Below are positions 36,366 to 59,814 of a DNA stretch of 64,000 bases, in pieces. The stretch's first letter is position 1; every line of letters begins with the position of its first letter. The stretch covers positions 1 through 64,000 of the forward strand of contig JAMKCH010049077.1 in NCBI GenBank assembly GCA_023653785.1. The letters run 5' to 3'. The position numbers were made by a program, and so were the translations under genes. The DNA comes from Ophioderma brevispina (taxonomy: Eukaryota; Echinodermata; Ophiuroidea; Amphilepidida; Ophiodermatidae). Below the pieces are notes generated by a model that saw only the letters and a program-made list of their open reading frames with translations, had not been told where the DNA came from and did not search any database.

Positions 36366-36607
36366 TCTCGATATTCCGAAGGTTCGTTATTCCGAAGGTT
36401 CGTTATTCCGAAGGTTCGTTATTCCGAATCTTAAAAAGGGTTCGCTATTCGAATCTTAAAAAGGGTTCGCTATTCGAATCTTAAAAAGGGTTCGCAATTC
36501 CGAATCTCAAAAAGGTTCGTTATTCCGATATTGAAAAGGTTCGGTATCCGAAACAAATAGCGTGTTCGTTATTCCGAATTCAAAAGAGGTTCGCTATTCC
36601 GAATTTT
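36366..36607 (+). repeat. Array A, left arm (ggttcgttattccgaa units)
   Basis: Units ggttcgttattccgaa repeat directly at first, then alternate with aatcttaaaaaggg spacers (ttcgctattcgaatcttaaa). The unit is the reverse complement of the gaatagcgaacc core of array A' at 57270-58330. Confidence 0.85.
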
Positions 36608-36689
36608 GTTTTTTACATTGGAGCCATGAATATGACGAATTATATGGATCCGTGCGTTGATGATCGCAAGAAATAAATAAATATGAGGT

Positions 36690-38190
36690 ATTTTCTCGAA
36701 GTTTGGAGATTTTTTTCTCAAATTTAGAGTTTTTCGAGCTATTTCCATGAGGTTTTGAGATTTTTCTCAAAGTTCCGAGATATTTTCTTGAAATTTAGAG
36801 ATATTTTCATGAAGTTCGAGTTATTATCTTGAAGTTTCAGATACTTTCTCGACGTTTGAGATATTTTCTTGGAATATCGAGTTATTATCTCAAAATTCCG
36901 AGTCACTGTCTCAAAGATAGCGTTATTATCTCGATGTTTTAACATATATCAAGTTTGAGGTATTTTTCTCAAATTTCAAGATAATATGTTCCAAATTGTG
37001 GTATTATCTCGAGTTTGGTATCTTATCTCCCATTTTGTGATATTTTCTCGAAAATCGAGTTAATATCTCGAATACCGAGCGCTTATTTTCTCAAAGATTC
37101 GAGTTATTATTTAGAAGTCTCATTATTATCTCTAAGTTTGATATTAGTCTCTCGAGGTTTGGGATATTCTCGCGAATATCGAGTTACATTCTCGAAATTG
37201 TGAGTTTATTCTGGTCAAACTTCGAGTGCTTATCTCGTATTTTGAGATATTTTCTCGCAGTGTAAATATTTGATCAAAGTTCAGATTTTTCAAAAAGGTC
37301 GAAGTTCGAATATTTTCATGAAGTTCGAGTTTATTTTCCCAATTGAGTTATTACCTCGTAAGTTTGATATATTTTGGATCTCAAAGTTTTAGATATTTCT
37401 GCAAGTTGGATTATATGTCCTCAACGTTTCGAGTTATTATCTTAAAGTTTTCAGATATTTGCTCGAGTTAATATTTCGAAGTTTGAGTTATTGCCTCGAG
37501 TTTGATTATCTCTTAATCTTGAAGTTTGACATATTTTCACAAAGTTCGACTTATAGATATCTCAAGGTTTCGATTTGTATCTATAAGTTTCAGATATTTT
37601 CTCAAGTTAATAATTTTCGAATTTGAGTTATTACCTAGAGTTTGATATTTATCTTGAAGTTGGAACCCTCTTCTTAAAGGTCGAGGTATTTTCCTTCTCG
37701 ACTTTAACTGTCAGCTGGGTACTCGAACGTGCCAATCAACTAAACTAACGGTCGTTAACTGCTGCCAGGTTAACGACGTCTTTAATGATCATTTTTACAT
37801 TTCTCGAAGTTCTGATTGTTCTCGAGGTTGAGATATTTCTTAAGTTTGTTTTGATTTTTTTGGTTAAGTTTGAGTGTTTCTCAAGTTTTGAGATATTTCC
37901 TGAAATTTCTACATATTTTCATGAAGTTTAGTGGTATTTCTCGAAATTTTAATATTTTTTTCGAAGGTTTTGCAGATTCTTTTCTTAACTTTGGATTTAT
38001 TACTTGACATTTCAGATTTTTTCTGCCGTTTGAGAGATTTCTGGAAATATTGAGTGTTATCTCTAAATTCCGATTTATTATCTCAAATGATTCGAGGTTC
38101 AAAAGTGTCAGTTATTGGTGCTCGAAGTTTTCACATATCTCAAAGTTGGAGATCTTTTCTGGAAGTTTAGGTTTAGGTTTATCTTCTAGT
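36690..38190 (+). repeat. Array B (gagatattttctcgaagttt units)
   Basis: About 1.5 kb of strongly degenerate 22-25-base units of the type gagatattttctcgaagttt with frequent one-base gains and losses. No counterpart is found in the right arm. Short frames with DNS.I..N-like repeats on the minus strand are artefacts. Confidence 0.8.
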
Positions 38191-38199
38191 TATATATTG

Positions 38200-38400
38200 T
38201 ATTTCATTTATACGTGAACGTTTAACAGTGCCCTCAGATGGCAACATATTTATTCTTGACAAGTCGACATCATTAGCAACATTATGTTGACATAGGCACA
38301 TATTGTTTCTCACTTCTTGACCTTTCAAACAGTTTTAAAAATAGTCGTTAAGGTCCAGATAGGCTTTCTTGTCCAAGGCGCCTTCATAAAGGAATGACGT
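38200..38400 (+). repeat. Non-repetitive flank block between B and C
   Basis: Contains gtgccctcagatggcaacat, attcttgacaagtcgacat, tgtttctcacttcttgacct and tagtcgttaagg. The same words, reverse-complemented and in reverse order, stand at 55830-55960 next to array C', so the block is part of the mirrored unit. Confidence 0.85.
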
Positions 38401-39085
38401 CATGTGGAGATAGCTTAATCTTTGTCCAGTTTGACTTCACAAAGTAGATGTCGTTCTTGGCGTATAAGTTATCTTTCAGTCGCCTTCACAACAAAATATG
38501 TCGTATTGAGATTAATTATCTTGCCAAGTTTTACTTCCACAAAACGAAAGATGTCGTCTTGGCGAGTTAGATTTCTTCAAGTGATCTTCACAAAAAGTAA
38601 TGTCGTCTCGTCAAGATAGATTATCTTGATCAAGTCGCCTCACAAAAAGTAGATGTCATATTGAAGAGATAGATTATCTTGCCAAGTTTACTTTCACAAA
38701 CGTAATGTCGTCGTGGCGAGGTAGATTTTTTGCTTACCAAGTTGACTTCACAAAAAGGTAGCAATTTCGTCTTGGAAGATAGATTATCTTGCCAGTTGAC
38801 TTCACAAAAAAGTATATGTCATCTTGGCGAAGATAGATTTTTTTTCCAAGTTGACTTCAAGAAAGGGATGTCGGCATGCGATAAAGATATCTTGCCAATT
38901 TGACTTTCACAAAAAGTGATGTCGACTTGGCGAGATAGATTATCTGTACCAAGTTGACTTTCCCAAAACGCAAAATGTTAAGTTATGGGCGAGATAGCAT
39001 TATCTTGCAAGTATACTTCCCAAAAAGTAAATGTTGTTCTGGCGAGATAGATTATCTTGCCAAGTAGACTTCACAAAAGATCGCA
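38400..39085 (+). repeat. Array C, left arm (about 50-58-base units)
   Basis: Units of the type cttgccaagttgacttcaca + aaaagtagatgtcgtcttgg + cgagatagattat, about a dozen, with many small indels. Exact reverse complement type of array C' at 54500-55830. Confidence 0.92.
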
Positions 39086-39144
39086 CAAGTGCGGGCGGGC
39101 ACGCTACAGTTATGCAGATATTGGAATATTGGTATATCGGCTCG

Positions 39145-39225
39145 ACGGATCTTCGGCTAGACGGACATCCACCTAACGGATATTCGCCGGCTGTTTTTTC
39201 AATATCATAGCAAAAAAAGTAACCA
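39145..39225 (+). repeat. Junction block between C and D, left arm
   Basis: cggctagacggacatccacc, taacggatattcgccggctg, ttttttcaatatcatagca. Reverse-complement counterpart at 54408-54495. Confidence 0.85.
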
Positions 39226-39805
39226 TACATTTCTTTTATTTTGGCTTCACATATTCCCCAGCAGCACCGCACACTCTCCACTTCCCACAACGAAAATAGA
39301 AAAAACGTAATCACCGCATCTTAAGGGAAATACTTAGGATTTGGAATCATCATTTATTCAATAACACATTTCAGGACTTTCCACCCCAGAAAAAACCATA
39401 ACCAGCCGATTTTTTTATTTTGGCTTCAATATCTCCACACCCTACACTCTTCCCACAAGACAAATCGAAACACTTCACCAAGCGTAAGGGAGATTATGTA
39501 GGTTGTGATCAGTCATTTTTTTTCATATGACATAATTTAAGGATTTACTCCCCCTCCCAGAAAAAACCTAAGCATACGATTTTTTTAATTTTGGGCTTCA
39601 AATATTCCCCCAAGCAAACCCACACTTTCCCACAAAGCAAATACGAAACCTTCAACCACCGCCTGAGGGTGATAATGTCGGTTTAGAATCAGTCAATATT
39701 CTTCTATAACATAATGTAAGTGGACCTCCCCCCGAAAAAACCTACCATACGATTTTTTTTGGCTTCAAATATTCCCCTAGCCCCAATCCACTCTTTCCCA
39801 CAAAA
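39225..39805 (+). repeat. Array D, left arm (about 190-base units)
   Basis: About three units containing atacgatttttttattttgg, cttcaaatattcccc, cactctttcccacaaa, cttcaccacagc, ttaagggagataat and gaatcagtcattttcttcat. The array is cut by a LINE at 39805 and continues at 45084. Confidence 0.9.
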
Positions 39806-39829
39806 ACTGGTAATACCTGTTTCCAGGGC

Positions 39830-40480
39830 AGGGTTGGCGGGCGGCTAACCGTCACCCCCATCAGTTTTACTACGAAGCTGACGAGGAGGGTAGCTGGTTA
39901 CCCTGTATAATGAAAAGATATCTACTACAAGAGCTCCTGCCTCGGGAGACAACGGCGGTCATCCAGCAATGTGGTGCAGCTGCCTTGCTGTTTGGGCGTG
40001 GAAGCCCCAAAACGCTAGGTCCACCGCGACAAACGGTGATGACGTCAGGAAGGGCAGCCGGTCAATTATCTTTTTTTGCTCCAATAAATCCCTCAATGGT
40101 GTACATCAAACAAAAAGGCACCAACCATCCCGAAGGTTGGGGTGTGCGGCACCTGCCTACTAGAAAAGGAAGGTGCGAGGAGTCACCTTGAGTCGCGCAG
40201 TGCCGCCTGCCCAATGACGGTGTGAAAGCATATATATTCGCCGGGTGGGAGCCATATCCGGGGCTCCCATAGACGAATAACGGAAGTAAAGCGTGAAACT
40301 ATGCTGCGTGAAGAGTCACGGAATCGATTGCCGCTATTGTATCCCCATTGTTTCCGATCTATGAGTACGCCGGACAATGGTTACTTCTACAAGGTATTAA
40401 GCCTCGATAGGCGGCTGCGGGGTGAGGAGTTATGTAGTTGGAACCTGGGGCTTTTGAAGGGCCCTGTGTAGAGGGTACAG
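39830..40480 (+). other. LINE 5' part, no frame recognised
   Basis: GC-richer than its surroundings (ggcgggcggctaaccgtcac; gggctcccatagacg). Open frames overlap in several phases without recognisable motifs. Probably 5' UTR and the start of the LINE frame. Confidence 0.5.
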
Positions 40481-40499
40481 TGAAGAAAATTGAGGAAGC

Positions 40500-41430
40500 G
40501 CCTTTGGAACCATCAGTAAAGTGTGCAGGAGGTGCTCGTTGAGATTGGCGGGGGCTCTTCTTTGTTTGGTCGCGGTCCTACCCGTCTCACGTTGTGGTGG
40601 CGGCCCTCGTGCCGGGATTGGGGTGTTGGATTCTTGGTGAAAGAGGAATTGTGTGCAAAGGTGTGGAGGTTATACGGAAGAGCGATAGGGTGCTAGCCTG
40701 CATACGTGGTTTTCGAGGCCGAGGTCCGTGCGGTTGCTATGTGCTATTTGCCACGTGTGGAAGGAAGCGGAAGCAAAGGAACAGTTTTATGATGAGTTGG
40801 CAGATGAATGGATTTGCAAGTGTCCGTTGAACTGGTCTTATGTGTTGTGAATTTCAATGGGCATGTGGGGAAAAGATCGAGTTTCGAAGGTGTTCATGGA
40901 GGACATGGGTTTGGGGAGAGAATCTGGAAGGAAGAATGTTTTGGGAGTTTTGATGAACAAGGTATGTGTTGCAAATACTTGTTCCAGACCGAGGACAACA
41001 AAAAGTGACATTTACTCAGGGGAAATGAACGAGATTGATTTTTTGTTTATTGGGGCTAGAGGAAAGAGAGAATTCTGAAGAATGTTGGTGCTCCCGGAAA
41101 GTGCAACAACGTTGTTAGGGTTGTAGATGTGGATAAGGAGGAAGTTTGAACAAGGTGGTGAGGAAAGTAGTTGCGATAGAGGAGTAAAGTATGTCAGCTT
41201 TGAAAGAAGAAGTACACGAAATAAGTTTTGAGACGAGAGTTGGGGGGCCTGTGGGGTCTGATGTGTCAGATTTGTTGGGTTGCTTTTTTTTATTTTTTTT
41301 TATTAAAGAATGGGTGTTACAGCATGTGATGAAGTGTTGGGGAAAACACTAAGTAGGAGAGACAAGAGAGATACAGGGTGGTGGAATGCGGAGGTGAAGG
41401 AGGCTATAGCGAGAAGAGGATGCATTGTAA
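40500..41430 (+). pseudogene. LINE APE-type endonuclease domain, decayed
   Basis: FYDELADEW-like (about 40778-40805), then NFNGHVGK (about 40850-40873; the catalytic motif is normally DFNGH), FEGVHGGHGFGERI (about 40880-40922), ANTCSRPRT and EMNEIDFLF (about 41025-41050), and after a frame change GWWNAEVKEAIARR (about 41380-41418), the linker to RT. The D to N change in the first motif and several frameshifts make it inactive. Confidence 0.78.
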
Positions 41431-41434
41431 GATA

Positions 41435-42208
41435 TCGTCGCCCACATCAACATACTGTCTTATCTGATATTTTTGACTTTTTTTTGAGATATTTTGCCCT
41501 ATGTAACTTATAATGGTTATGGTCTATACATGCACACAGTTACAATATTGAAAGTGGGCCTATCTAATTAGTGAGTATTAAATTAAGAATTTGGGGGGGG
41601 GGAGAATCAATAGCTTAATACGCATATCGCGTATTTCACATACTGTGTTTATGTTTCATTATACTAATTCAACCAGGCGTATAATAACGCTGTTCGTAAC
41701 ACAAGCTGTTTCCTTTTTCACAGATAGATCTATGGCGTCGTAGCTGCCTCGTGCCGTGAACATGACGTGTTTCACCATGAGATCTATCTGACCGCCATTG
41801 AATAGAAGGGTGAAATTAGCGTTCGTATGTGCACAATACGACTTTGTTTTGCTTTTCACATACAGACTTATGACTTTGTATCTTTATATAAGATTCCACG
41901 TCGCAGATCTATCTGAACGCATTGAATATCAACGTTGAAATTAAGCTCGTATGTGCACAATACGACTTTTTTGCGTTTTCGCATACAGACTTATGACCGT
42001 TGTATCTTTATATTATTAATACCGTTGCACTTTCAAAAACTCCCCAGTTAAACGTAAACTTCAGAATGTGTTCTTCTTATGCAAAATTAAAAGTAATTGT
42101 ATGTTTTAATTCCATAGTACACACATGAAATCCCCTGGTAGAATTTCAATGGCGATGTTCTGAAACGGCATTCCGTCAGATAAGAAGTATGTGTAATGTG
42201 GGCGACGA
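41435..42208. mobile_element. TIR DNA transposon 1 inside the LINE
   Basis: Left end tcgtcgcccacatcaacata + ctgtcttatctgat, right end gtcagataagaagtatgtgt + aatgtgggcgacga: inverted repeats of about 35 bases. Both ends are next to TA, so a TA target duplication is possible. The inside has a duplicated block (cgtatgtgcacaatacgact at about 41823 and 41950) and no transposase frame. Confidence 0.8.
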
Positions 42209-42214
42209 TATGAA

Positions 42215-43184
42215 AAAACGGTACGGAAGAGAAGACGTAGGTTATAAGAGGCTAAGAATCGAAGCAAAGAAATGGTTGCGAAGGCTATGAGGGTAAGTGT
42301 TTTTATTGAGTTGAGTAAATCCAAACAAGGTGGTTAAGATGGAATGCAATGAAAAAGATGATAACTGTTGCAAGTTGGACGATGTCTGAGGGAAGTGATG
42401 GGAACTTGACTTTCATGAGCCAGATAGAGGTGAGTCTGGGCAAGCATATGGAGATAATCATGAATGCGGAGAATGAGTGGGATCAGAAGATGGAGGCTGA
42501 TGCGGTGGAGAGGCCAGTTAAGAGGGTCAGCGGGGAAGAGTGGTGAAGCAAAGAGAATGAGGAAGAAAGGCAGCTGGCCTCAGAGTTGAGTGCTGATGAG
42601 ATGGTTGTGCGAGAGTGGAGAGATAGGGATTGTTGTGATGATGGAGTTGTGTCAGACGGAAGTTAGATGGCGGAGGGATGCCGGAGGATAGTGGGCCAGG
42701 GAGTGTGGGTAGTTCAATGTTTTAAAGGGAAGGGGATGAAATGAGTTGTGGTGCATATAGGGGGTGTGAAGTTGTTGGGAGCATGCATGAAAATTGTGGA
42801 GAGGGTTATAGAGAATAGATCGGAACGATAGTGGAGTGGATGAGATGCAATTTGGGTTTATGCCAGGGAAGGGAACGAATAGATGCAGTTTTATTTAAGT
42901 GGGTTGCACAAGGAGCGAATATCGGCTAAAGGGACGAGCTGTATATATGGGTTTGTAGGACTTGGAGAAGGCATTTTGATAGGGTACCGAGGAAGTGAGG
43001 AGGGGGCGATGAGGAAGAGAGCGATACCAGAAGTAGTGGTTAGAGAGCAGTGATGAGTTTGCATGAATGAGCCAAAACAAGAGCATCAAGGTTCTGTCTT
43101 TCGCCAGTGGTTTTGCAATTGTCATTGATGTATTCACGGAGAGTGCAAAAGAGGTTTTGATGGTGCAGATGTTGTATGGCGGAT
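42215..43184 (+). pseudogene. LINE reverse transcriptase, first part
   Basis: AKKWLRRL-like start near 42265, NAENEWDQKMEADAVERPVK (about 42458-42520), VFKGKGMK near 42717-42745, GAYRGVKLLG near 42755-42785, QFGFMPGKGT (about 42848-42877), VGLEKAF.RVPRK (about 42952-42990) and a FAIVIDVFTESAKE...MLYG block (about 43110-43180). The YADD box is cut at this point by DNA transposon 2. Frames are broken throughout. Confidence 0.82.
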
Positions 43185-44285
43185 CCCGGGGGCCACTTGT
43201 TTTCAAGGTGGATATCATGCTAGTGTATGGCCTCCAAAAACGTACCCTAATCGCGTATGTCACTTGGCAAGAAAAAACACCCTAAGCCCGTATTTTGGTT
43301 GATTTGCTGCCATAACAAGTACTTTGGGTTTGAAATTTGCGACCCTAAACAAGTGTTTTAGTTTAATTTTACTCCCCCCATAAAGAAGTAATTTGCATAA
43401 CAATTTAAAAAAACAAAAAGTTACACCCTAAACAAGTATGTTGACGTTATTTGCTCCCCTAAACGAGTACATTATCAACTGTACCTTTACCATTACACTG
43501 AACAGGCTATAGTCTCTGATTGTAACGTTTACCCCGAAAAAAGGAAATATTTACCAATAACGATTTCATTGAAGTGTGTGATTTTATTTCATTCTTTATG
43601 TAAAAGCAATCAATTTGCGCATTATCTAGGCCCTAATAAGTTTAACAAATTAACTCCATTACATTAAATTCCAAAGTTTCTTAAAGTTGTCCGATTTCTT
43701 TGGAATTAATGAGTTTGGACGGATTGTCGTAATTGACCGGTTTTTCTGCAAATTCAGCCCTTCTTTGAACTAAAACACGGACTAAATATTCATGACCTTA
43801 TTTTGATTGACATAAATAGAGAAGAAGATAGACCCTAATTCCGTTTCCTACGCACATATTATTGTAACGGATCGGTATTAGTGTTAGATTATCACGCAAA
43901 ATAAAAGAAACTCTAATGATCAAGACTATAGGGGCCCATATGTGTATGAGACAATGAAGACATAGAGAAAATAAGCTAACATAAGGCTATAACGGTTTAA
44001 AATTACTCGGGAATCATGGGAAATCAGGAGAAATCGGGAACAAAATCCACTATTTCCAGCGTTTTAATGTGATTTTTACAAGTATTCAAAATATAAACAC
44101 CCTAACACGTATTTTCGGACCGTCAAAAGTCCATCCCTATTTTGAATTTTGATTGTGATTTGGATACCCTAAACAATGTACGAGCGTACATCGCTTGATC
44201 TCAAAAAAACGACCCTAATTACGCGTTTTTGTTCACGAGCATGATATCCACGTTGGAATACAAGGGACCCCCACCCCCCCCCGGG
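43185..44285. mobile_element. TIR DNA transposon 2 inside the LINE RT domain
   Basis: 1,101 bases with inverted ends of about 95 bases: cccgggggccacttg...ggatatcatgctagtg on the left and cacgagcatgatatcc...ccccccccgggg-type on the right. Flanked by atggcggat (43176-43184) and atgcggat (44286-44293), an 8-bp target duplication with one extra base on the left. The length suits hAT or Merlin-type mobilisation. No transposase frame, so non-autonomous. A third end of this family is at 63724-63840. Confidence 0.88.
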
Positions 44286-44990
44286 ATGCGGATGACTGGT
44301 TTTAATGAGCGACACATTGGAGGGACTGAGGGATAAGTTGGGAAATGCAAGGGGCCTTGAAAGGGTTGAAGGTAAACCCTGGGGAAACAAAAGTTGCTGG
44401 GATGGGGGGAGAGGAGGGAGGTGGTAGTGAGTAAGGTAGACCCATGGGTGGGTGTGGGAGAGAGTAAAAAGCAAATCAGGGGGTGTGAGAATGTGGGAAA
44501 TGGATCCATGGGAGATGCACAAAGATTGAAGAGAGTGAACCCGTAGTTGGCAAGAGGATTTTGTGCAAGACGATGCGAGAAGGGGGCTGGAGGGATGGTG
44601 GAGCAGGAAGAAAAGTTGTGTGTGATGAGGTGGAGTCAGGGAAAGGAGTTTCACATACTAGGGGATAAGGTTAGCGGGGAGGTGGATGGAGGGGTGGACT
44701 GTGACAGCTAGAGTGAGGTATGGGTGGTGAAGTTTAGGAATCTGCGGAGTTGTTGCAAGGGAAGGAAAAGATATCTTTGGAGATGAACGGAATGTTGTAT
44801 AAGAGTTGTGTGAGAGATCATGTGCTGTATGGGAGTGAGACGTGGTGTCTGAGCGAAAATGCGATGGGGATTCTGAGGAGGAGACAGATGCGAAGAGAGC
44901 AAATGATGAGAGCGAGGAGGGGACGTCAAAAGAATGTAAGAGCAATGTGAGAGGGAGGCATGAATTGAATCGATTGGATGAATGAAGTGG
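44286..44990 (+). pseudogene. LINE reverse transcriptase, second part
   Basis: Resumes directly at the catalytic box after the insertion: ADDW/LVLMSDTLEGLRDKL (about 44288-44340), then KVNPGETKVAGMGGE-like (about 44365-44415), and near the 3' end NGMLYKSCVRDHVLYGSETW (about 44787-44846) and GILRRRQMRREQMMRAR. The long minus-strand frame at 44658-45374 is antisense to this part. Confidence 0.82.
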
Positions 44991-45083
44991 AAGGAAGGGA
45001 GTAAGGGCGGTTGCCGCGAGTGTGAGGTAAATCGGCCACCCCGTGGACGGGGATAAAACCGGATTAAAACTTTGGTATAGTAG

Positions 45084-45305
45084 TATTAGGAGTTCACCAC
45101 AGCTAAGGGAGATAATTAGGTTTGGAATCAGTCCATTTTCTTCATATGCCATAATATAAGGACTTCTTGAAAAAAAAAACAAATGCCAATGCGTTCTTTT
45201 TGTATTTTGGCCTTTTTTCAAATTTCCCCAGCACTCCACTCTGCCAAAAGGAAGATAGAAACACTCCCCACAGTTTTTAAGGGAGATAATTAAAATAAAA
45301 TTAGG
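45084..45305 (+). repeat. Array D, left arm, continuation after the LINE
   Basis: One full D unit and part of a second (caccacagctaagggagata; ggaatcagtccattttcttc; caaatttccccagcactcca). It joins in unit phase to the part at 39225-39805. Confidence 0.9.
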
Positions 45306-47595
45306 AAACTCTTCTTCATACAAAGAAGCGCTACTCCGGTCATTGAAAAGTACGTGGATTGCTGAACCGCGCATTAATGGATTTCGAACACTGATCTCCT
45401 ATCATGGATTGGGAAACCGGGCTCGTAAATTGGTGACATGACGGCCATATTGGTCATCCAAAAAGAGCCAAGCAGGTGGTTTTAAGCGCCGGTCATTATA
45501 CAAAACTTGTTCCATTGAAAAAATGTGGGTAAGGGACATAACAGACTACAGAATCAAGCCAATCAGTGAGTCATGTATTTGCGCGCGTATGGGATGGCGT
45601 GTCTCTAAAAAGTTGCACCCGGTGTAGAAGTAACCATGTCGGCGTACTCATAGTCCGGGAAACAATGGTGAACAATAGGCAATCGATTCGTTGGCTCTTT
45701 ACGCAACATAGTTTCCACGCTTTATTCCGTTATCGTCTATGGAACCCAGGACACTATGGGGTCCATGGTTTCAAAAATACAACAACTACAACAAAACTAG
45801 CAACCTGATGAAATTTGGCTGAAAATACAAGATGGCGGCCGTGATGAACATTGTTTTTAGGTGCTTACAAAAATAATCATCACAAGAAAATTAGGAGGAA
45901 GACAAGCCATAAAAAAATGGTTATATTGAAAGATAATTGGATATGGAATACTAAGACTCAAAAACATTGAAAGAAGAGACAAAACTTAATCGTTGTTTTC
46001 GAAATCCACAAAAATAGGAAATTGGTCAAAAATCAAAAATGGCGGATATATGCAACAAATGATTCAGGAGCGAACCCCTGTGTCACCGGTGGTTAGCGTC
46101 GAAGTCGATTGGTGGTGGTGGTTCTACTACCTCTACTATACCCCATTATTGAAAATGAAGCATTTCTGATTGGTCAGTTCATTGCCCATTATGCTGCAAT
46201 AATGAGCGCTTACTGCATTTTCTTATCATTTATTTCATGAATCAGCATACAAACTACACATAAAATAAGGCCATATTAACTTAAAACCTCTACAAACAAA
46301 CAAACATAAAAAAAATAAAAAAAATAAAAGTTTTTTTAGTTAATAGAATAGAAATTTGTCAGTTACCAGTCTATGGGCTCATAATGTATCCTCGGGCGGG
46401 AAAAAAATAAAATAATGGGCGCCATTATTTAGTTTTTCGAATCTCGAGGACATTATCGCCTATAAATGATACTGCCATTACTTATAGTTATTAGTTCATT
46501 TGTTTTTAAATAATTGGCACCACATGTATGGACTCTTAAAATTGATGTTGATTAAAAAACTAGTCACTTGTCCATATCATTTGGGCAAAACCGCCATGAA
46601 AATATAATATTCCTACATTTTTAATGCCAAAAAATTTCATTTTTTCATTTATACTCTGATGGTGTCTGTGGAAATGACCACTTATGCAAAATTGTGAAAT
46701 TTGATTGTCAGTGTAGACGAATACTAGGTTATGTTTGGACAGTAGCCAACGGTGTGGACAATGCTATCAAGGGTTATATACCACATCGAAATCATCTATT
46801 GTTTTATAATAATGATTTCGGGGTGTTTAACACCCCACCCCTTAGTAAACAGTGTTATCAAAAAAGACTTGTAAACATATGCGGGAAAGTTGCTCTTATT
46901 TGATGTAACTTGATATCTGCAAAAACTAAATAATACTAATATATACATATTTAAAAAACTCGCCTTTCAGGAACAACTTGATATTTTCTTTGGGAAGTTT
47001 TTATAAGCGTTAGTGCCCCCTAATGTGTTTTTCGATTATGTTAGATTTATGAGTATATTACCCATTTCAATTGTTATTCGTTTCAAGTTTGGTATATATT
47101 GACGCGTGTACATTACTTAAAAGATAGGAACTATAATGTAATGAGAAATTTTAAGAAAACGAGCAAAATAGAACACTTTTATCCTCCAAATCGTTTGAGT
47201 TATAAAACTTCCAGTTACATTTTAAAATCTTTCTGATCTCAATTTGACAGTTCTAGCCAATATTTATTGTGTGTTACACATGCATACTAGCTATTTATTA
47301 ATTTTTATATAACATGCACTACAATGTTTGTGGTTCCTTCTAAACGTATTTTTACTCTTGAAATTTTGTTGTTTTCTACAAAAATGAGTTAAACATATTG
47401 GCGATTAATTAAGATATTAATTTTAAGGAGCCAAATTGTAAGAGGTTGTAATTTTTTCCTGTAAATTCGTGGTCATCGTGGTCATCTGCGCTTTATTTTG
47501 ATGCAACGAACGATAATTGCCACATGAATGTTTCCCACGTTACCGCTATGGAAGTCGTTTGTATACAAATTTGCACGGTTTGTAATAACACCAGC
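45306..47595. other. No gene; one hairpin repeat
   Basis: AT-rich DNA, the innermost part of the mirrored structure together with the satellite at 47.6 kb. Two agatggcgg words (45830, 46037). A hairpin repeat at 46375-46465 recurs at 63482-63580. No reading frame of interest. Confidence 0.5.
46375..46465. repeat. Hairpin repeat (cataatgt...cctcggg)
   Basis: cataatgtatcctcgggcgg ... aataaaataatgggcg is followed by a reverse complement-like cgccattatttag ... tctcgaggacattatcg. A diverged copy is at 63482-63580. Confidence 0.7.
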
Positions 47596-47599
47596 AGTA

Positions 47600-48635: not shown

Positions 48636-48639
48636 TCCA

Positions 48640-49160: not shown

Positions 49161-49162
49161 TA

Positions 49163-49493: not shown

Positions 49494-49495
49494 TA

Positions 49496-49711
49496 AGCTG
49501 TGTTGACAGTGTTTACTATGTTCTTTGATGGGGCGAGTGGTAGTGCTAGGGGATATATGAAGCAAAAAATCGTATGGTTATTTTTTTTTCTGGTGAAGGG
49601 GAAGTAAGTCCTTAAATTATGTTAGATGAAAAAATGACTGAATCCGAACCTAATTAATCCCCCTTAAGCTGTGGTAAGTGTTTTCTCATATTTCTTTGTG
49701 GGAATAGTGTG
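49496..49711 (-). repeat. Array D', right arm, part 2
   Basis: One D' unit after the MITE (gctaggggatatatgaagca; atgactgaatccgaacctaa), then cut in the word gggaatagtgtgg by a SINE. Confidence 0.88.
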
Positions 49712-50090
49712 GCACGTCGGCGATGTTCTGGGCCCGAATTCATGCTCCTGCCATGCCATCTTATATCTCATAAGGCAGCTAATCAATATTTTTCTACTTC
49801 AATCCACAACTCCTGATGTTTTTGATGATTCCAATCTCCAACTCTCAAAATACAAATAAAAGCATAAACTAAAATTTTGTTCCGGAGTCGAACCGACGAC
49901 CTTTAGATCACAAGACGAGCGCCACAGACACACGCCACGCAATCCGATCCGGCGGAAGTCGTTCTTTTGTAATACTTCCAATTAAACATTTAACGGAATA
50001 AAGCGGCACACATAATAAGTGAATAGCGCCCTATGAGACTAGTTGAAAATATATTCTCCTGGAACATGATTTCGGCCAAAACTCCAAGAA
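49712..50090 (-). mobile_element. tRNA-derived SINE in a D' unit
   Basis: On the minus strand a tRNA-like head carries a B box ggttcgactcc (49884-49894) and an A-box-like tggcgtgtgtctgtggc (49920-49937), with cgtcttgtgatctaaaggtc between them, like a tRNA-Thr or His anticodon arm. The acceptor stem does not pair, so it is not a working tRNA. The D' unit is split at agtgtgg / gagtgtgcg, suggesting a target duplication of about six bases (agtgtg). The tail runs toward lower coordinates. Confidence 0.72.
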
Positions 50091-50228
50091 TCAAGAGTGT
50101 GCGTGCTAGGGAATTTTGAAGCCACATAAAAAAAAAAAAAACTCGTATGGTTAGTTTTTTTTTTTCTGGGAGGGGGTGTAAATCCTAAATTATGTCATAT
50201 GAAGAAAATTACTGATTCCAAACCTAAT
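50091..50228 (-). repeat. Array D', right arm, part 3
   Basis: Continues the unit cut by the SINE (gctagggaattttgaagcc; atgaagaaaattactgattc). Confidence 0.88.
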
Positions 50229-50553
50229 TATCTCCTTAAAGGTGGTTGTTCCGATTTTATGTGTATTATGTTCCCTACTTGATATGAGAGCCTGGCCTTG
50301 CACATACCCCCCATCAGTACCGTGTGGGAACAAACTTGCGGTTTTGGTGGTAGATGCAAAACCCTATTCAATCTGTGCTAATATTGATGGTAACCACTAA
50401 TCGCAGTTTTTTTTTGTTTATATCTTGGGAATGAAATGGATCTGAGGACTCAAATTTTCAGGACGACAATGAGAAAATACTGCCTTTCATCTGATATAAA
50501 AATCGATACTACTTCCGGGTTAATCAGGGGGGCCCCAAAGACGATCGGAATAC
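50229..50553. mobile_element. TA-flanked MITE in a D' unit, copy 2
   Basis: Same element and same site within the D' unit as 49163-49493: left aaggtggttgttccgat, right atcggaatacgcactt|ta. Internal words (acaaacttgcggttttggtg; ccctattca) match copy 1. Confidence 0.82.
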
Positions 50554-50554
50554 G

Positions 50555-50902
50555 CACTTTAAGCTGTGGGTGAAGTGTTTTCTATTTTTCTTTGCGGAAG
50601 CGGGTGGGTGCTGGGAATATTTGAAGCCAAATAAAAAGAAAATCGTATGGTTAGCCTTTTTCTTGGTGAGTAAGTCTTACATTATGTTATATGAAGAAAT
50701 ATGACTGATTCCAAACCTATTTATTCCCCTTAAGCTGTTGTGAAGTGTTTTTATTCCTTTTGTGGGAAGAGTGTGGGTGCTAGGGAATATTTGAAGCCAA
50801 AAATGAAAAAAAAAATCGTAATGTTTTTTTTTTCGGGGGGGGTGGGGAGGTAACCTTACATTACTCATAATGAAGAAACTGGCGACTCCAACATAATTAT
50901 CT
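50555..50902 (-). repeat. Array D', right arm, part 4
   Basis: Two D' units (gggtgctgggaatatttgaa; agtgtgggtgctagggaata). Confidence 0.9.
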
Positions 50903-51019
50903 CCTTAAAGGGGGATGATCCCGATTTAAGAGTATATGAAGTTTTTCATCTTGAATGGATTTTACCCTCAAAATCCCATCTGTAAAGTTTCCGCGCCGAT
51001 ATTTCAATCCGTTTTTAAT

Positions 51020-51965
51020 AGCCCTGGAGCTAGCCACATTTGTTAACACATCTCAAGTACAAGGTTTGAGTGATTAAATATGTAGACATCTTACAGGAAC
51101 CACCTGAACGCGAATTCTTAAGTGCCTGCAACGGGTTCCTTAAGAGAGGGGGCCAAGACAAGATTGTACAGGGTCAAATTTTTTTTAATTGATCCAATCA
51201 TGTTGAAAGTATACCATGTTATGCGTCTAACCATAAGGTTCAGAAAAGGTATAGTTTGTACAGTAGTACAGCCAAAGTTTCATCAGGTTCGAGGCTAACA
51301 ACGCAAAAAATCATAAAAAGGTCAATTTCAGTTGTACAGTTGGTCCAAATTTAAAGTTGCTCCGAGTTTGGATCAAAAATGGTGCACGTTTTTGGTATAG
51401 CTTTAGGATTAAAATAGGAATAGTTTTGAGTTTCCTCAAATCGTGCTTAAAAATTAGGGGAAACAATATCAGCCCCATTGTGAAGCAATGGACGTTGACC
51501 TCTGTGCCCCCTATATCCGGAAACTCAAGCATTTAAGACAGTTTAAACTATCCTATATTCTAATCCTATAACTGCCACTCCACCAATATTTGCCACCATT
51601 TTTAATCCAAATCGGAGCAACTCTAAATCTGACCCCTGTACAACTGAAATTGACCCTTATTAATTGATTGTTTGATGTTTTGAGCCTATAACTCTGAAGC
51701 TTAAGGCTGTACGTATTACAAACTAAACTAGACCTTTTCATGATCCTATGGTTATACACATAACTGTGGTGTGCTTTTCACATGATTGAATCCCTTACGA
51801 CGGTTTGACCCCCTGTAGAATCTTTATCTGGGCCCCCTCTCCTTAAGGCACCACTGCGGGCACTTAAGAATCGCGTTTTCAGGGGTTCCTGTCAGCTGTC
51901 GACATATTTAATCATCTCAAACCTTTTGTACTTGAGATTGTTACAAATGTTTCTAGCTCCCGGGT
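51020..51965. repeat. Inverted repeat with about 430-base arms
   Basis: Left arm (ggagctagccacatttgtt, cttacaggaaccacctgaac, cttaagagagggggcc, gtacagggtcaaattt) is matched in reverse complement up to acaaatgtttctagctcc at 51945. The spacer is about 80 bases. The caatcatgttgaaag and gtatagtttgta words and the gtacagggtca word resemble the arms of the element at 22804-23703, so a related family is likely. Confidence 0.85.
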
Positions 51966-52811
51966 TATTTAGATGTGAGGGGCCGGCTAAAACAGATTTC
52001 GTAAGCCCCATAGAGTTACTGTGTGTAACACACAGATTCCTACTTCACTGTGTAACCAAACCACCCAGAGCTGGCTACTCCATGGGTACTCTTAGCTCTA
52101 CACCAAAGGTACCCCCTTGAATGTTCCCTATTTGATGCCGTACCTACACTCCAAGAACACGCATTTCTTACATTGTAGTTACCAAGTTACCACCCGCTAC
52201 CACCGAGTAGACATGGATGGCCTACCCACTAGACGTACCCTCGCGCCGGCCCGGATTCCGTGTATTTTTTGGCGCATAGACGGATAGTTTACAACACAAG
52301 CGGCTGTCTGCACCGCGTGGAGTAGCTCTTGGGTTAACCCGGCTCTCATCGTGACGCGGTATTTCTCATGGCCAATTTTGTTTTTTTTTTGATATTTTTT
52401 GGCATATTTGCATTTTTTTATTACATGTGCGGGATTATGGGGTTTTTTGATGATGTCCGATATTGAATTTCGCTGATGTTTCGCTAAAAAATGTTCAAAA
52501 AATGCTAAACGCAGCCCAAGTGTATAGCGCCCATCATTTCATGAAATTTCATCCACTCTCAAAATGGCGTCGTGGTAACCGTGGCGTAGCTACGTGGTAG
52601 CTGCGTGTCTTCTCCGGTACGTCTACTACTCAACATTCACCTTCTCTCCACCTATTGGGCAACTCCAGGGTCGCCATTGGGAGGTAAAGCAAGTAGTCCC
52701 CAGTGTGGAACAAACTGGAAAAAAATAAAAGTCGCGCGGTCCAGAGTAATCCACCCGTGTACAACGGTGTAAGAAAAAAAATGTTCTATAGCCCTGTTGT
52801 CTTGCAACTAC

Positions 52812-52920
52812 CAAAAGTGGCGTCTATGGGGCAATTAGCCCAGTGGTCTGTGCAGTCGCTTCGCGGTAGATTTGGTGTAGCTGCCGTATAGGCTTACCAC
52901 GTGGTAAGAATCCGAGCCGT
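52812..52920 (+). repeat. tRNA-like SINE fragment
   Basis: A-box-like tagcccagtgg at 52836-52846 in ggcaattagcccagtggtct; a degenerate B-box-like ggtaagaatccga follows about 60 bases later. Not a functional tRNA. Confidence 0.4.
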
Positions 52921-53787
52921 TGTAAGTAACTTGTGAAGTATACGAACCACTGCATGGATAGCAGCTATGGTTTACTTAGCAGTACCATCCTATAGTGTAC
53001 TCTGCAGTTGCCTGCTAGGTGACTGACAGCCGAGGCGTCGGCAACCGGTACGGATGGTACGGATTTGTCCCGTACCACTTTTTTGCTTAAAAAAAAAAAA
53101 AAAAAAACAAAGGGGGGAAAAAAGAGAGTAAAGGGAAGAAGAAATGAACATATAGTGAGTTTTTTTTCGGTTTCATTCTCTTAAGTCCATTTCTCTTCGT
53201 CTCCACAACATGCTTACACGTAGGCCTCGCGGTCCATCTCTTTTCTGAACGTCCTACTACTAACCCCCTTGACTAGTAGTCCTTAACTTCCTGTCCAATT
53301 ATGATCTCCAAATTACGGAAAATCGCTGGCTTCAGGGGGCTTGCCCCCCTTATCCCCCACAGGGGCTCGCCCCTGGAGCCCTGCTGGGGGTCAAAAACAC
53401 CCCCAACCCCCGTCATCCTCACCCACTTTATTTGTGTTCCGACGCCCCTGCGACGTACCATGTAATCCACCCCATTAGTGAAAGTACATCTGCAGCTACC
53501 ACGGGAGACGTACCTTCACAGGTACTCCCTACCGGCTGCTTAGTACTAGTAGGTAGCACTTTGGTCCGTAGAGGGCGCCAAACATCCATTGTTGTTTATG
53601 ACTTTCTGATCATTTTCAAGCTTAGAAACTTCTATATTTGAGTTTGAGCATCAACCAAAAAACCCCTATAAATGACATTTTGTGTAAAAACATAAACCTT
53701 GTGACCAAAATGTAATAATGGATAAAATTACTAACATAATCACACAGAAATCAAAGCTCATTTGCATGGAGTAACCTCAGGTACATC

Positions 53788-53862
53788 CCCCGCAATGGTG
53801 TGACTAGTGGTTAAGCTACTCTGTGTAACCAGGTGGATGGTTTAGCCCCCACTTTTGCGGCA
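53788..53862 (+). repeat. tRNA-like sequence, probably SINE-derived
   Basis: ccgcaa at 53790 pairs with ttgcgg at 53855-53860 as an acceptor stem; tgactagtggttaagc fits a D arm and A box; tggtttagccccc is a poor B box. Anticodon not assigned. A working tRNA is unlikely. Confidence 0.35.
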
Positions 53863-54125
53863 CGGCGATGTGGTTACCCATGCGTGGGTCCTCCGCTTCT
53901 ACTTCATAGTCACTTCAAAGGTACTACCCATGAATAAAATTGGTTGTGTAACCAAAATGGGCACATTTTCGTTCATAACTTCCAAACGAAACATCGTTTA
54001 GCAATAAGATGCTCACAGGGTAAATGGAGAAAAATATGTATCTTTATTCGAATACCACCAACTTATTTACCACTCTGGTAAAATCTGGGGTCCCGTCAGG
54101 ACAGAGGGCTGATTCCGATCGGGCA

Positions 54126-54407
54126 ATAGGACCTTTAAGCTGTGGTTGAAGGTGCTTTCTATTTTCTTTGTGGAAGATTGTGGGTGCTGGAATATTTGAA
54201 GCCAAAATATACAAAATCGAATGGTTAGTTTTTCGTGGGGGGGGGGGGGGTATACTTAAAATTTCTGTTATATGAAGAAAATGACTGATTCCAAAACTAC
54301 TTTCTCCTTAAGCTGTGGTGAAGTGTTTCTATTTTCTCTTTTGGGGAAGAGTATGGGTGCCTGGGGAATATTTGGAGCCAAAATAAAAAAAATATAAATA
54401 CAAATGT
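54126..54407 (-). repeat. Array D', right arm, part 5
   Basis: Two D' units (gtgggtgctggaatatttga; gaagaaaatgactgattcca) including a G-run at 54237-54250. Confidence 0.9.
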
Positions 54408-54495
54408 TCCTTTTTTTGCTATAGGTGAAAAAACAGTCGGCGAATATCCGTTAGGGTGAATTTCCCTTCTATCCGAATAACCGTCTATCGAATAT
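54408..54495 (-). repeat. Junction block between D' and C', right arm
   Basis: ctttttttgctataggtgaa, aaaacagtcggcgaatatcc, gttagggtgaatttccc: reverse complement of the block at 39145-39225, in the same relative place between D and C. Confidence 0.85.
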
Positions 54496-54499
54496 CCTA

Positions 54500-55830
54500 T
54501 CGCCAAGTGACATCTCTTTTTGTGAAGTCAACTTGCAAAATAATTTATCTCCCCAAGACGAAATCTACTTTTTGCGAAGGCGACTTGACAAAAGAAAATC
54601 TTATCTCGCGCCCAGACGACATGTCAATTTTTGATAAGTCAACTGGGCAAATAATCTATCTCGCATTACGACAGCCCACTTTTGTGAATCAACTGTAAAA
54701 AAAAATCCTATTCCCTTTCGCCAAGATGACACTATTTGTAATTCACCGGCAAATAATCTATCTCTTCAAAGATGGACTCTACTCTTTGTTAAGTCCATTG
54801 TAGATAAGCTTACTCGCCATGACGACATCCACTTTTTGTGAAGTCATCTTGGTAAAAAAAATCTCATCTCGCCAAGATGACATCTATTTTGTGAAGTCAA
54901 CCTGGCAAGATAATCTATCTCTTCAAGATGACATCTACTCTTTGTTAAGTCACTTGGTAAGATAATGTATCTTGACATGATGACATCTACTTTTTTGTGA
55001 GTCAAGCTTGGCAAGAAACTCATCTCGCACAATACGACATTTGCTTTTTTGGAAGTGCAACTTGGCAAGATAATCTATTTCGGCAAGACGACATCCCAAC
55101 TTTTTGTGAAGTCAACTTGGTAAGATGATCTATCTCGTCAAGATGATATCTACTTTTTGTGAAGGTAAACTTGGCCCAATAATCTATCTCACCAGACGAC
55201 ATCTACTTTTTGTGAAGGCGACTTGACAAGAAATCTTGATCTCGGCCAAGACGGACATTAATTTTTGATAAGTCAACTTGGCAAGATAATCTTCTCCCCA
55301 TGACGACATCCACTTTTTGTGAAGTCAAAACTTGGGTACAAAAATCTCATCTCGCAAGATGACATCTATTTTGTGAATAGTCAACATGGCACGATAATCT
55401 ATCTCTTCAAGATGACATCTACTCTTTGTTAAAGTCAACTTGGTAAGATAATCTATCTCGCCATGACGACATTCCGTTTTGTGAAGTCAACTTGGCAAGA
55501 CACTCTATCTCGCCAAACGACGATATCTTCTTTTTGTGAAGTAAACTTGGCATGATAATCTATCTCGCCATTACGACATCTACTTTTTGTGAAGTAACTG
55601 GTAAGAAAATCTACCTCGCCAAGACAACATCTTACTTTTGTTGAAGAAGAAACTTGCAAGATAATCTATCTCACCTTGACGACATCTCGTTTTGTTGAAG
55701 GCGCAATGACAAAGACTAATTATTTCGCCAAGACGAATCTACTTTTTGTGAAGGTCAAACTGGACAAATTTATCTCACCATGACGTCATCTACTTTTTAT
55801 GAAGGCACTTGACAAGAAACCTATCTCGCC
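54500..55830 (-). repeat. Array C', right arm (about 57-base units)
   Basis: About 23 units of the type gacatctactttttgtgaag + tcaacttggcaagataatct + atctcgccaagac, the reverse complement of array C. Units differ by scattered one-base gains and losses. Minus-strand open frames here (for example 55453-55659) are repeat artefacts. Confidence 0.95.
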
Positions 55831-55990
55831 TTAACGACTAATAAACTGTTTAAGTCAAGAAGTGAGAACAATATTTGCGATTCAACAATAATTTTGAAAT
55901 TATGTCGACCTTGTCAAGATAAATGTTGCATTCTGATGGCACTAAAACGTTCCGTAATCTGATGGAATTTCGAAAAAGAATAAATCTAAT
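55830..55990 (-). repeat. Flank block, right arm
   Basis: tcgccttaacgacta, actgtttaagtcaagaagtg, agaacaatatttgcg, ttatgtcgaccttgtcaaga, ttgcattctgatggcac: the reverse-ordered, reverse-complemented counterpart of 38200-38400. Confidence 0.85.
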
Positions 55991-57265
55991 TGGTTAATAA
56001 ATTAACGTGTCTTTCAGAAAGTAACAGTAATTTCAGAATTTACACGTCAAAATGTTCGTACACGTGAAAGAGAGAGACGCAATGACCCTATTGGCTAACG
56101 ATTACTTGGTATAAGTTCCCAACTTACTAAAGCAGGCGAATGTTATACCTATAATTTTAAAGGCAGGTGACAAGCACGATGGGTCTGAGAAAAATATTCC
56201 ACTTAATGAGGGCACTAGGTAGTAAAAAAACAAAACATTTTTACACAATTTATTGCTAAAAAAAAAAACCCCTGTTTTTCCTGAATTTTGAAACTCCTCG
56301 GGGGGGGGGGGGGGGCGAACGCCCCCTAACCCCAACCCCCCGCTGTGCCCTAGCTATTTATATAGGAAAGTAACATTTTAGGTCATATAGCCTTAAAATC
56401 AACAAAAAACAGTCAATTTATTGATAACAAAATTATCCTTTTGGTACTAAAGTCAACATGTGTGCTTTTTCAATCTTCTCCATAACAACGAACACCACGT
56501 TTCTTGTGCTTTTCTATATATTATTCGATTTGATCATATTCCATGTGTGAGTCCTTAAATTGACAGGAGATTTTTTTGAGGATAGAATTTCTCTCAATTG
56601 CACTGGATCGGTCGAAGCCACCTACCAAGAACGTTTCAGAAGTTTTTTTTGACAAAACAGTACAAAAAAAACCCCGCAAAACCTTGTTTTGAAATTGCCT
56701 ACTATCGTAATCTTCCCTATAGAAACCATGCGTTGAATTTCTGTCGTGCACGACAGAAATTACTAAAATCTTCCATCTTATTACATAAAAACGGTGTCTT
56801 GGCTTCATTCCACTGCCGTGTGATCTAATACATTAGTAAGCATTCCCAATAGGCAAAAACAAGGGTTAAAAAATATTGGGGCGCTTCTTTCTGGAAATCT
56901 CCTCAAGTTCTCATTTAACCAGGGCCTTGGCCGATCCATGGCTCAGTTTTTAAATATACTGGGCCAATTAAGGTTACCCCTTCATGCTATCATTACGTTT
57001 TTTGACTTTTACGAATCGTCATGTGAATAGCAATTTTCCTCCTGGCGGGAGTACGTCCCAATAATTTCAATTTTCATTCTTAAAAAAAACATTTTTAAAT
57101 GTTAAAAATTGGGCAATTTTATCTGTTCGAGTTTTAAGGTCCGTCCGACGAGGATCCCTTGTGTGTCCAAGGATGCCTCCGCTTTCTTAAGTAATTATGG
57201 TACTTGAATTTGAGGCATAAGGCCCTGGAGTTTGACATTTTTTTGAAAGCAACCTTTCTTTTTTT
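55990..57265. other. No gene; contains one MITE
   Basis: Takes the place of array B in the right arm. Apart from the MITE at 56566-56904 and a G-run (56299-56314) nothing is recognised. Confidence 0.5.
56566..56904 (+). mobile_element. MITE with ggagattt ends, copy 2
   Basis: Starts aggagatttttttgag and ends ggaaatctcctc. It carries a perfect 26-bp palindrome at 56736-56761 (tttctgtcgtgca + cgacagaaa core). Same family as 33652-33999 and 61192-61526. Confidence 0.88.
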
Positions 57266-57269
57266 TATT

Positions 57270-58330
57270 AGGAATAGCGAATCATTTTTTATTTATGAAT
57301 AGTGAGCCTTTATTTTTTATTATGAATATCGAACCCTATTTCTATTATGAATAGCGAACCTTATTTCTATTATGAATAGCGAACTTATTTCTTATTATGA
57401 CTAGCGAACCTTATTTCTATGAATAGAATAGCGACCCTTATTTCTTATTATGAAAGCGAACCTTATTTCTTATTATGAATAGCGAACCTTAATTTCTATT
57501 ATGAATAGCGGACCTTATTCTTATTATGAATACGACCTAGTTTCTTATTATGAATAGCGAACCTTATTTCTTACTTATGAATAGCGACCCTTATTTCTTA
57601 TTATGAATAGCGAACTTATTTCTTATTATGAATAGCGAACCTTATTTCTTATTATGATATCGAACCTTATTTTTAGAATAGCGAACCTTATTTCTTATTA
57701 TGAATAGCGAACCTATTTCTTATGATGAATAGCGAACCTTATTTCGTATTATGAATAGCGAACCTTTTTTATATTTTATGAATAGCGAACCTTTATTTTT
57801 CATTAGGAATAGCGGAACCTTATTTCTTATTATGAATACCGAACCTTTATTCTTTATGAATATCGAACCTTATTTTTTTATTATATAGCGAACCTTATTT
57901 CTTTTATGAGTAGCGAACCTTTTTTATATTTTATGAATCGCAAACCTTTATTTTATATGAATACCGACCCGTATTTCTTATTATGAATAGTCGAACCTTT
58001 ATTTATTTTATGAATAGCGAACCTTTATTTGTTTTAATTATGATAGCGAACCTTATTGTCTATTAATAGTCGACCTTTTTATTTTATGAGGCGACCTTAT
58101 TTTCTTATATGAATAGCGAACCTCTTTTTATTATGAATAGCGAACCTTTATTTTTGTTTTAAAATAGCGAACGCTTATTTCTTATTATGAATAGTGACCT
58201 AGTGTTTTTATTTATGATGCGAACCTTTTCTCATTATAAATAACTACCCTTTTTTATTTTATGAAGACGAACCTTTTTTTCTATTAGGAATAGCGAATCT
58301 TTTATCAAATTATGAATACGAACTTATGTG
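57270..58330 (-). repeat. Array A', right arm (about 26-base units)
   Basis: About 40 units of gaatagcgaaccttatttct + tattat with many one-base changes. The core gaatagcgaacc is the reverse complement of ggttcgctattc in array A. Confidence 0.95.
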
Positions 58331-59634
58331 CATTTTTACTCCAGACTAAAGAATGGAAAGACACCAAACTGGCATAGACGCATCAATTGTGCGTAGGATA
58401 ATTTAATCTAAACAAGCATTCGTACAGTTGGAGGAACCAACAACAATGACATCCAACAAGATAAAGCCCAGGTTCTTGCGAGTCCTGGAATAACTCGGAT
58501 ACTCGCATCAGAACCTGTAACATACCGGCCTCCGGACGTAGGCCATCATCGCAAGCAGCCATCCCCACCGAACGCATCCCTCCGGACGCTGCGAGTGTGC
58601 GCTCACCACAAGCACAACAAAGGTGTTAAATCCTTGCAAGTATGCGATTCGAAGCGGAAATCGCAGATTTGCAACCGGAATTTTCAACCCGGGTTTAACA
58701 ATAGAACATTGGTTTCCCTCAATATAACATGATTAAGTACAATTATTATTTTTGGCCTAACAATTTAGAGCAATGGCCTATCCCAAATGTAGCCTATATA
58801 TTGAGCCAAAAGACCCCTCTGGCCAGCAAATGTTGGCCTAAATTCACGTAAAATAAAACCTATATTACAATTATATAGGCCCTTAATGCAAGAAAGATGG
58901 CAAACTAATACAATTTGTGCACTTGTTGCCAAATTTTTCATTTTCCGCCACTACCACTTGCACCAAAACGTGGAAAAATGGTAAAAATAGAAAACATAAA
59001 AGCAATATTTAATTCCAAAGCGTGGAATATATGCAAAATGCGATATATTTAAAACATAAAAATACTAGGGAGCACCAATGCAACTTAGTTGCAGCATCTC
59101 AAAGAATACCATGAACAACAATTAGGCATCGTTAATAATACTATAACCCTAGCAACAATTTCTTGGCCATTGCGTACGCACGCGTTGCATATTGCTTGAA
59201 CTGCGACTACGTATAACCCAGATGTGCGCCCGTTTTGGCGGAGAAGCGGGCGTACCTAGTAACTTGGCCAAGGATTAACTACTCCGATTATAAATTTGGA
59301 AATAGCGAATAACAGCAAACTGGAAATGGGGGGAGGGTGGGAAAAATATTATACGGAAGTTTGAGAAAGGAAGAAACCATCCTATACACATGAAGCACTG
59401 ATAAGTTGTGACTGACAGACACGAAGCCCATACAACTGACAAGGGCATGCAATGATTCGATTGGATGCTGAGGCCTGAAGGTGAGCGATTATGGAGAAGG
59501 TCGCATTGAGGATGCTATATAGCATAACACACATCGGTGATCAATGGAGCATAACGAGCAACACCAAGACGCGAAGTGCTTCTTTTTCGACAGGCGCAAA
59601 CTAGTTTTCCTTACTATGGACTTCGGAAAACATT
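58331..59634. other. No gene recognised
   Basis: AT-rich to mixed DNA, a few palindromic words. The minus-strand open stretch at 58383-58577 has no recognised similarity. Confidence 0.45.
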
Positions 59635-59685
59635 ATTGTGAATAGCGAACTTATTAATAGCGAACCTTATGAATAGCGGGCGGCC
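59635..59685 (-). repeat. Outlying A' units
   Basis: gaatagcgaacttattaata, gcgaaccttatgaatagcgg: two or three A' units standing 1.3 kb beyond the main array. They mark the outermost point of the right arm. Confidence 0.85.
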
Positions 59686-59814
59686 CCGTTTATAGATGAT
59701 GTGACTCAATGTTTTACAACGCAACTTTAGCACCTGGTCTACTGCCGTGATCACAATACAGCTACAGCACTAGGCCTATTCAATGGCCTATGTATACGGT
59801 ATTTTTGTTGAATA

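Follow-up and report, generated by a model that had tools for sequence, protein, structure and literature searches.

In a window of 64,000 nucleotides from the ophiuroid Ophioderma brevispina (contig JAMKCH010049077.1 of assembly GCA_023653785.1, positions 1 to 64,000 of the forward strand), a mirror-image structure was found to be real. It is about 18 kb in length and represents one copy of a mobile-element-like unit with further copies at other places in the genome. The unit spans positions 38,211–55,956 as defined by self-comparison of the window, and both of its arms contain, from outside to inside, a T block, a C array, a J block and a D array. It is probably a copy of a large dispersed foldback-like element, in which a T–C foldback took up a J–D family between its C arrays, with subsequent spread of the fused arm. 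The unit is shared between loci and has sharp ends, its C–J junction is recurrent, J and the neighbouring A–B repeats constitute independent families, and the arms of two copies correspond to each other in pairs.

Layout and copies of the mirrored unit

A first-pass annotation of the window had placed the mirrored structure at 36,366–59,685, with arrays A, C and D and the blocks between them mirrored in arms made of four tandem-repeat families. Self-alignment showed that C, D and the junction blocks are indeed mirrored but that A is not, and the limits had to be moved inwards. Positions 38,211–39,078 pair with 55,956–55,102 as reverse complement (77.3% identity over 909 columns, E 3e-140), and a further inverted match joins 38,365–39,490 with 55,233–54,132; the two pairs of junction blocks that had been singled out (38.2–38.4 with 55.83–55.96 kb, and 39.15–39.22 with 54.41–54.49 kb) both fall within inverted matches. 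The D repeats at 39,212–39,805 match 54,109–54,391 and, with interruptions, 48,614–50,878, again in inverted orientation. Tandem Repeats Finder listed arrays A, B, C and D to the left and C and A to the right; the right-side D array is absent from that list, its copies being visible by self-alignment only. Comparison of 36,605–38,210 with 55,957–60,000 gave no inverted match at E values up to 1e-3, and the B array has no counterpart on the right. Because the stretch from A to T is thus unmirrored and B stands alone, the mirror starts at T and not at A. The two A arrays align at 69–72% over 152–202 columns, yet their units differ. The features are as follows.

36,366–36,604, + strand: A array of 16/25-bp units, the outer end common to other A–B copies; a neighbour outside the mirrored unit
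36,605–38,210, + strand: A–B half-element, its middle block and B array, abutting T
38,211–38,392, + strand: T block, left outer terminus, reading TACGTGAACG here and TACGGAACG in its common form
38,393–39,078, + strand: C array of the left arm, units of about 53 bp
39,079–39,098, + strand: C–J linker, recurrent junction type 1
39,099–39,212, + strand: J block of the left arm; at other loci this block is where an independent family ends
39,213–39,805, + strand: D array of the left arm, unit about 179 bp
39,806–48,613, + strand: interior common to the window and contig C18561
48,614–50,911, − strand: right-side D-type repeats with other blocks interspersed
51,014–53,945, no strand: stretch missing from the C18561 copy, holding a palindrome at 51,017–51,969
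54,109–54,419, − strand: D repeats of the right arm
54,420–54,499, − strand: J block of the right arm, shortened; junction type 2, also found in C18561
54,500–55,837, − strand: C array of the right arm
55,838–55,956, − strand: T block, right outer terminus
57,250–58,330, − strand: A-like array with units of another type; it adjoins the mirrored unit on the right without belonging to it

The genome (2.51 Gb in 65,844 contigs) was searched with the T region, which gave at least 41 matches (best 40 of 60 candidates scored), and with an 81-base T probe, which gave at least 43 (best 40 of 72); 20 stretches were taken from the T matches and the window modules were mapped onto them. The whole unit was also present on contig C18561, where window positions 38,211–49,166 aligned with 20,074–9,187 of the joined stretch in one single alignment (78.7% over 11,566 columns), followed in the same order by matches to window 48,617–51,013 and 53,946–55,165. 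The ends of that unit lie at about 5,687 and 20,074, giving it a length of 14.4 kb as compared with 17.7 kb in the window, and the excess of the window copy consists mainly of the approximately 2.9 kb at 51,014–53,945 that C18561 lacks. When the flanks of the window unit (3.0 kb per side) were compared with those of the C18561 unit (3.1 and 1.2 kb), only A–B and A-like repeats were found in common. A mafft alignment of the two copies placed too few gaps and was not used.

The J end together with the first D unit differed by 5.9% mismatches between the left arm of the window and the high arm of C18561, and by 6.2% between the right arm of the window and the low arm of C18561, whereas the other four pairings of arms gave 9.4, 10.0, 13.1 and 13.1%. 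The right arm of the window and the low arm of C18561 also have the same C–J junction, which is unlike the common type. The arms of the two units are therefore old and correspond pairwise, and together with the common type-2 junction this disfavours both a misjoin and a fresh local duplication.

Counting of T ends gave 27 in 22 sequences, the window included (loci L004, L005 and L007 were left out as repeats of L016, L015 and L017). Of these, 19 begin at base 1 of the probe TACGGAACGTTTTAAGTGCCATCAGATGGC, and 16 of the 27 start with TACGG. In same-strand comparisons of up to 3 kb of flank each, A–B was found beside four T ends, L020 and L028 made up one pair similar close to T, the three T copies within L016 had overlapping flanks, and a few shorter matches occurred between other flanks. 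Inward-facing T pairs were found on six contigs with spacings from 1.0 to 24.1 kb, namely 17.7 kb in the window, 14.4 in C18561, 22.0 in C6109, 24.1 in C34195 (T at 641 and 24,754), about 20.3 in C1757 and about 1.0 in C43513. A second T end was not found in the single stretches of C13915, C20497, C38672 and C13044, nor in C34195 at 6,900–9,950. Two T ends lie back to back, 83 bases apart, on C47449 (L015 7,006–7,089), and on C57798 and C14852 T copies lie near each other in the same orientation. The interiors compared, those of C1757 and C34195, are unlike that of the window, so that the anticipated genome copies with the same outer ends and variable centres do exist. In C34195 and C1757, about 1.2 kb of interior next to the D array (window 39,953–41,187) recurs inverted on the opposite side.

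Independent families at J and at A–B

A search with the J query 39,080–39,260 gave at least 44 matches (best 40 of 134 candidates scored), of which 14 start exactly at query base 20. Six J-only copies were picked from these 14 and read; all open with GCACGGTAAAG. Since they were thereby selected for their start, it is their flanks and not their openings that are telling: the 514–549 bases of flank of the six copies did not match one another, and they matched none of the window's modules, not even T or C. With flanks that are unrelated and devoid of T or C, J must be considered to terminate a separate family. The T–C foldback encloses this J–D family, with one repeat family lying inside the inverted arms of another, a finding that goes beyond the first-pass annotation. 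When the arms were read by eye, the type-1 junction, in which C passes through a linker reading GATCGCACAAGTGCGGGCGGA or close to it into J, was seen in 13 of 16 arms and also in the left arm of C34195, thus in 14 of 17; type 2 was seen in the right arm of the window and the low arm of C18561, and the junction of L027 was unreadable. That one and the same C–linker–J junction is found in 14 of 17 arms shows T–C and J–D to have been fused and to have spread together.

These observations are best explained by a course of events in which the T blocks serve as outer ends, with T, the C minisatellite, the J block and the D satellite inverted around a variable interior. The J–D end of the other family would have come to lie inside a T–C foldback, flanked by its C arrays, and the fused T–C–J–D arm would then have spread as a single unit. 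Movement presumably occurred as DNA, with a transposase from elsewhere acting on the T ends, the C repeats may act as extra binding sites, and the fused form would make no further use of the J ends.

For the sequence separating A from B there were at least 44 matches in the genome (best 40 of 224 candidates scored), and among the contigs listed for A–B, that of the window and C39396 (L006) were also among the T matches listed. Probing 1.6–2.4 kb at each of six A–B copies (L037, L038 and L045–L048) revealed neither T nor J in any of them, and A–B is for this reason regarded as a separate foldback-like family. Read by eye, L046 switches from A–B to a B array in inverted orientation, L037 shows a pair of inverted A-type ends separated by about 0.6 kb, and each of the remaining four copies passes into other sequence at a differing point of B. 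A as an arm of the mirrored unit was accordingly rejected, given those copies without T and J and the unmirrored stretch from A to T; of the four-family arms first described, C and D remain, A being a separate family and B lacking a right-side counterpart. An A–B half nonetheless abuts T at 4 of the 27 T ends, namely the left end in the window, the low end in C18561 and those of L006 and L027, in constant order and orientation but with differing B-to-T junctions. Plain insertion of the unit into B does not explain this one-sided placement, and we can offer no good explanation for it. The T–C arms of L017, L019, L020 and L024, which end in unrelated sequence, resemble A–B halves that stop inside B.

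Target duplications and rival explanations

The search for target duplications, proposed earlier as a check, gave an exact 4-bp duplication in C6109, 5 of 6 letters of a 6-mer matching at the flanks of C43513 and nothing in the other four pairs. By a criterion of 4 or 5 exact letters, or 6–10 with at most one mismatch, which was chosen after the pairs had been seen, 2 of the 6 inward pairs qualify, against 12 of the 338 cross pairings between T ends, which is suggestive at best. Duplications of 8–10 bp, typical of Tetris and Mutator, were found in 0 of the 6 pairs (fewest mismatches 4), as were those of 7 bp typical of Galileo and the P superfamily (fewest mismatches 4). For the 6-bp duplications of IS3EU there was 1 mismatch in C43513 and 3 or 4 in the five others. 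The TA..TA termini that characterize IS3EU are seen in the unit, with TACGG at the start of 16 of 27 T ends, and so is the structural hallmark of foldback elements, long inverted termini containing tandem repeats, in agreement with the foldback-like nature suggested at first.

An inverted segmental duplication confined to this locus, without any mobile unit, would account for two inverted arms in the window. It is nevertheless highly improbable, as C18561 holds the same two-armed unit with its interior, arm for arm, within flanks that have only A–B repeats in common with those of the window, and as inward T pairs occur on six contigs. A palindromic misjoin of one arm might be suspected in an assembly this rich in indels (gap openings exceeded mismatches in 16 of 17 comparisons), with at least 9 of the 41 listed T matches lying within 1 kb of a contig end. 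Past the T block, however, the two arms of the window differ more from each other than from their counterparts in C18561, and they bear different C–J junctions, making such an artefact highly improbable as well. It is also unlikely, if less strikingly so, that solo arms of a dispersed repeat came to face each other by chance without there being a two-ended element. Solo-looking T–C and A–B halves do exist, target duplications are mostly absent, and T copies lie close together in the same orientation on C57798 and C14852 and back to back on C47449; the interior and both arms are still collinear between the window and C18561, and six contigs have inward-facing T pairs. Very unlikely, finally, is a single element comprising A, B, T, C, J and D with A as its true end and the T ends derived. 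The constant order and orientation of A–B–T at all four T ends having A–B would agree with it, but comparison of up to 3 kb of flank showed no A–B at 23 of 27 T ends, 6 of 6 A–B copies lack T and J in 1.6–2.4 kb, and the B-to-T junctions vary.

The C18561 copy, the pairing of its arms with those of the window, the unlike flanks and the T pairs on six contigs thus all favour a dispersed foldback-like element over a local duplication or misjoin. Several findings weigh against this interpretation. An exact target duplication was seen in 1 of 6 T pairs, and four pairs had nothing; the T block taken alone gave no arm correspondence, with 4.7–6.8% among the four arms; the T–C arms of L017, L019, L020 and L024 pass from the C array into other sequence without J; and A–B abuts T at 4 of 27 ends, with the opposite end of both the window and the C18561 unit lacking B. 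Every T locus was furthermore selected by a T match, in genome searches where only the best 40 candidates were scored, and no transposase was found in the stretches scanned.

Coding content, sequence noise and known systems

No transposase had been visible between the arms, and this agrees with our finding no Pfam domain above the curated cut-off, but only matches below it, in read-through frames of 39,806–48,598 and 50,900–54,101, a test weakened by indel noise. The 10-kb middle of C6109 (L013) likewise gave nothing above the cut-off, whereas the gypsy stretch of the window did in the same kind of scan. Strand asymmetry is strong at 40,392–45,622 (G 28.3%, C 14.5%), where no gene was recognized. 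When repeat pairs and pieces of the element were compared with gap-friendly scoring, gap openings outnumbered mismatches in 16 of 17 cases (ratios 0.67 to 2.67), a pattern suggestive of long-read errors left uncorrected in repeats; the gypsy frames of the window are long and open. True identities may consequently exceed those quoted, and since indels dominate the divergence of the element, a transposase may be hidden in it.

The inverted repeat 40,257–40,391/45,623–45,751 was considered as a third level of nesting and rejected. The block at about 40,222–40,392 is skipped in C34195, C1757, L021 and L033 and has one copy outside T in L017, and for these reasons looks like a separate small insertion. 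A typed C unit folded better than 200 of 200 shuffles (z −5.42) and a typed T probe better than 199 of 200 (z −3.25), with z values of −2.28 for a typed B unit and −0.83 for an A piece. The right C array of the window had 12 hairpins against a mean of 4.0, above all 20 block shuffles, whereas the left one had 3 against 3.6 and no excess. Because all 20 shuffles were also exceeded in B (12 against a mean of 7.05), in the right D region (20 against 12.5) and at 45,601–47,600 (16 against 9.05), the excess is not specific to C, and hairpins were rejected as a special feature of the C arrays. Rfam gave no match in the window.

A CAT-rich array with the unit CATCATCATCGATCAGTAG lies within the shared interior at 47,607–48,125. 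The imperfect palindrome at 51,017–51,969 (74% self-complementary), inside the stretch missing from C18561, has sequence partly in common with another at 22,804–23,703 (80%). Elsewhere in the window, a Gypsy-type pol with domains for reverse transcriptase, RNase H and integrase lies at 6,200–10,662, the part at 9,653–10,662 after this pol has an inverted relative at 26,977–28,095, and a dispersed repeat of about 350 bases has three copies (33,640–34,011, 56,555–56,911 and 61,179–61,538).

The TU elements of sea urchin have inverted arms of tandem repeats and, by that general description, resemble the window unit. The closest known systems are Tetris, Galileo and Tm1; Tetris and Galileo have a similar architecture on a smaller scale, with arrays in their arms. 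In Tetris, a foldback of Drosophila virilis, the inverted arms are long and comprise an outer flank and a domain of tandem repeats; it has a variable middle, no conserved open reading frames and a link to satellites, but its arms reach 1,735 bp, with one named array type and 8–10 bp target duplications (PMC4079207); the present units reach 24 kb, combine two array types from two families and gave no such duplications. Galileo, of the P superfamily in Drosophila, resembles the unit in that its arms vary, tandem repeats occur internally, inner sequence is recruited into the arms and chimeric copies lack matching target duplications; it differs in having arms of up to about 1.26 kb, 7-bp duplications and a known transposase (PMC3573991). 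The inner sequence repeated in inverted orientation in C34195 and C1757 is reminiscent of that recruitment. Tm1, a Mutator/foldback element of Meloidogyne, has composite inverted termini of variable length, together with 9-bp duplications and one element group encoding a putative transposase (PMC3169594). The IS3EU superfamily, finally, has TA..TA termini and usually 6-bp duplications (PMC10045372). The T unit shares such termini, which does not demonstrate membership, and differs in showing one near match to a 6-bp duplication among 6 pairs and no transposase found. Nested foldbacks of this kind were not described in the titles and abstract openings searched, a coverage that excluded most subscription papers, and what seems new here is the size, together with the fact that two families, both possessing an end and a satellite of their own, have been fused into a single arm and have spread as a unit.

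More tentatively, transposon arms in this genome may be built by the stacking of families, where each family has its own sharp end and satellite and is enclosed in the arms of the next, such that large gene-less elements would grow by takeover of ends, carrying satellites with them through the genome; the A–B halves found next to T could represent the beginnings of a third layer. In this genome several tandem-repeat families are tied to the ends of mobile-element-like units, and two of them have fused and spread jointly. The unit thereby provides a concrete case for studying how satellites arise inside the arms of transposons, how unstable very long inverted arms are and how elements grow while lacking recognized genes, and it may also account for the frequent assembly breaks near T ends.

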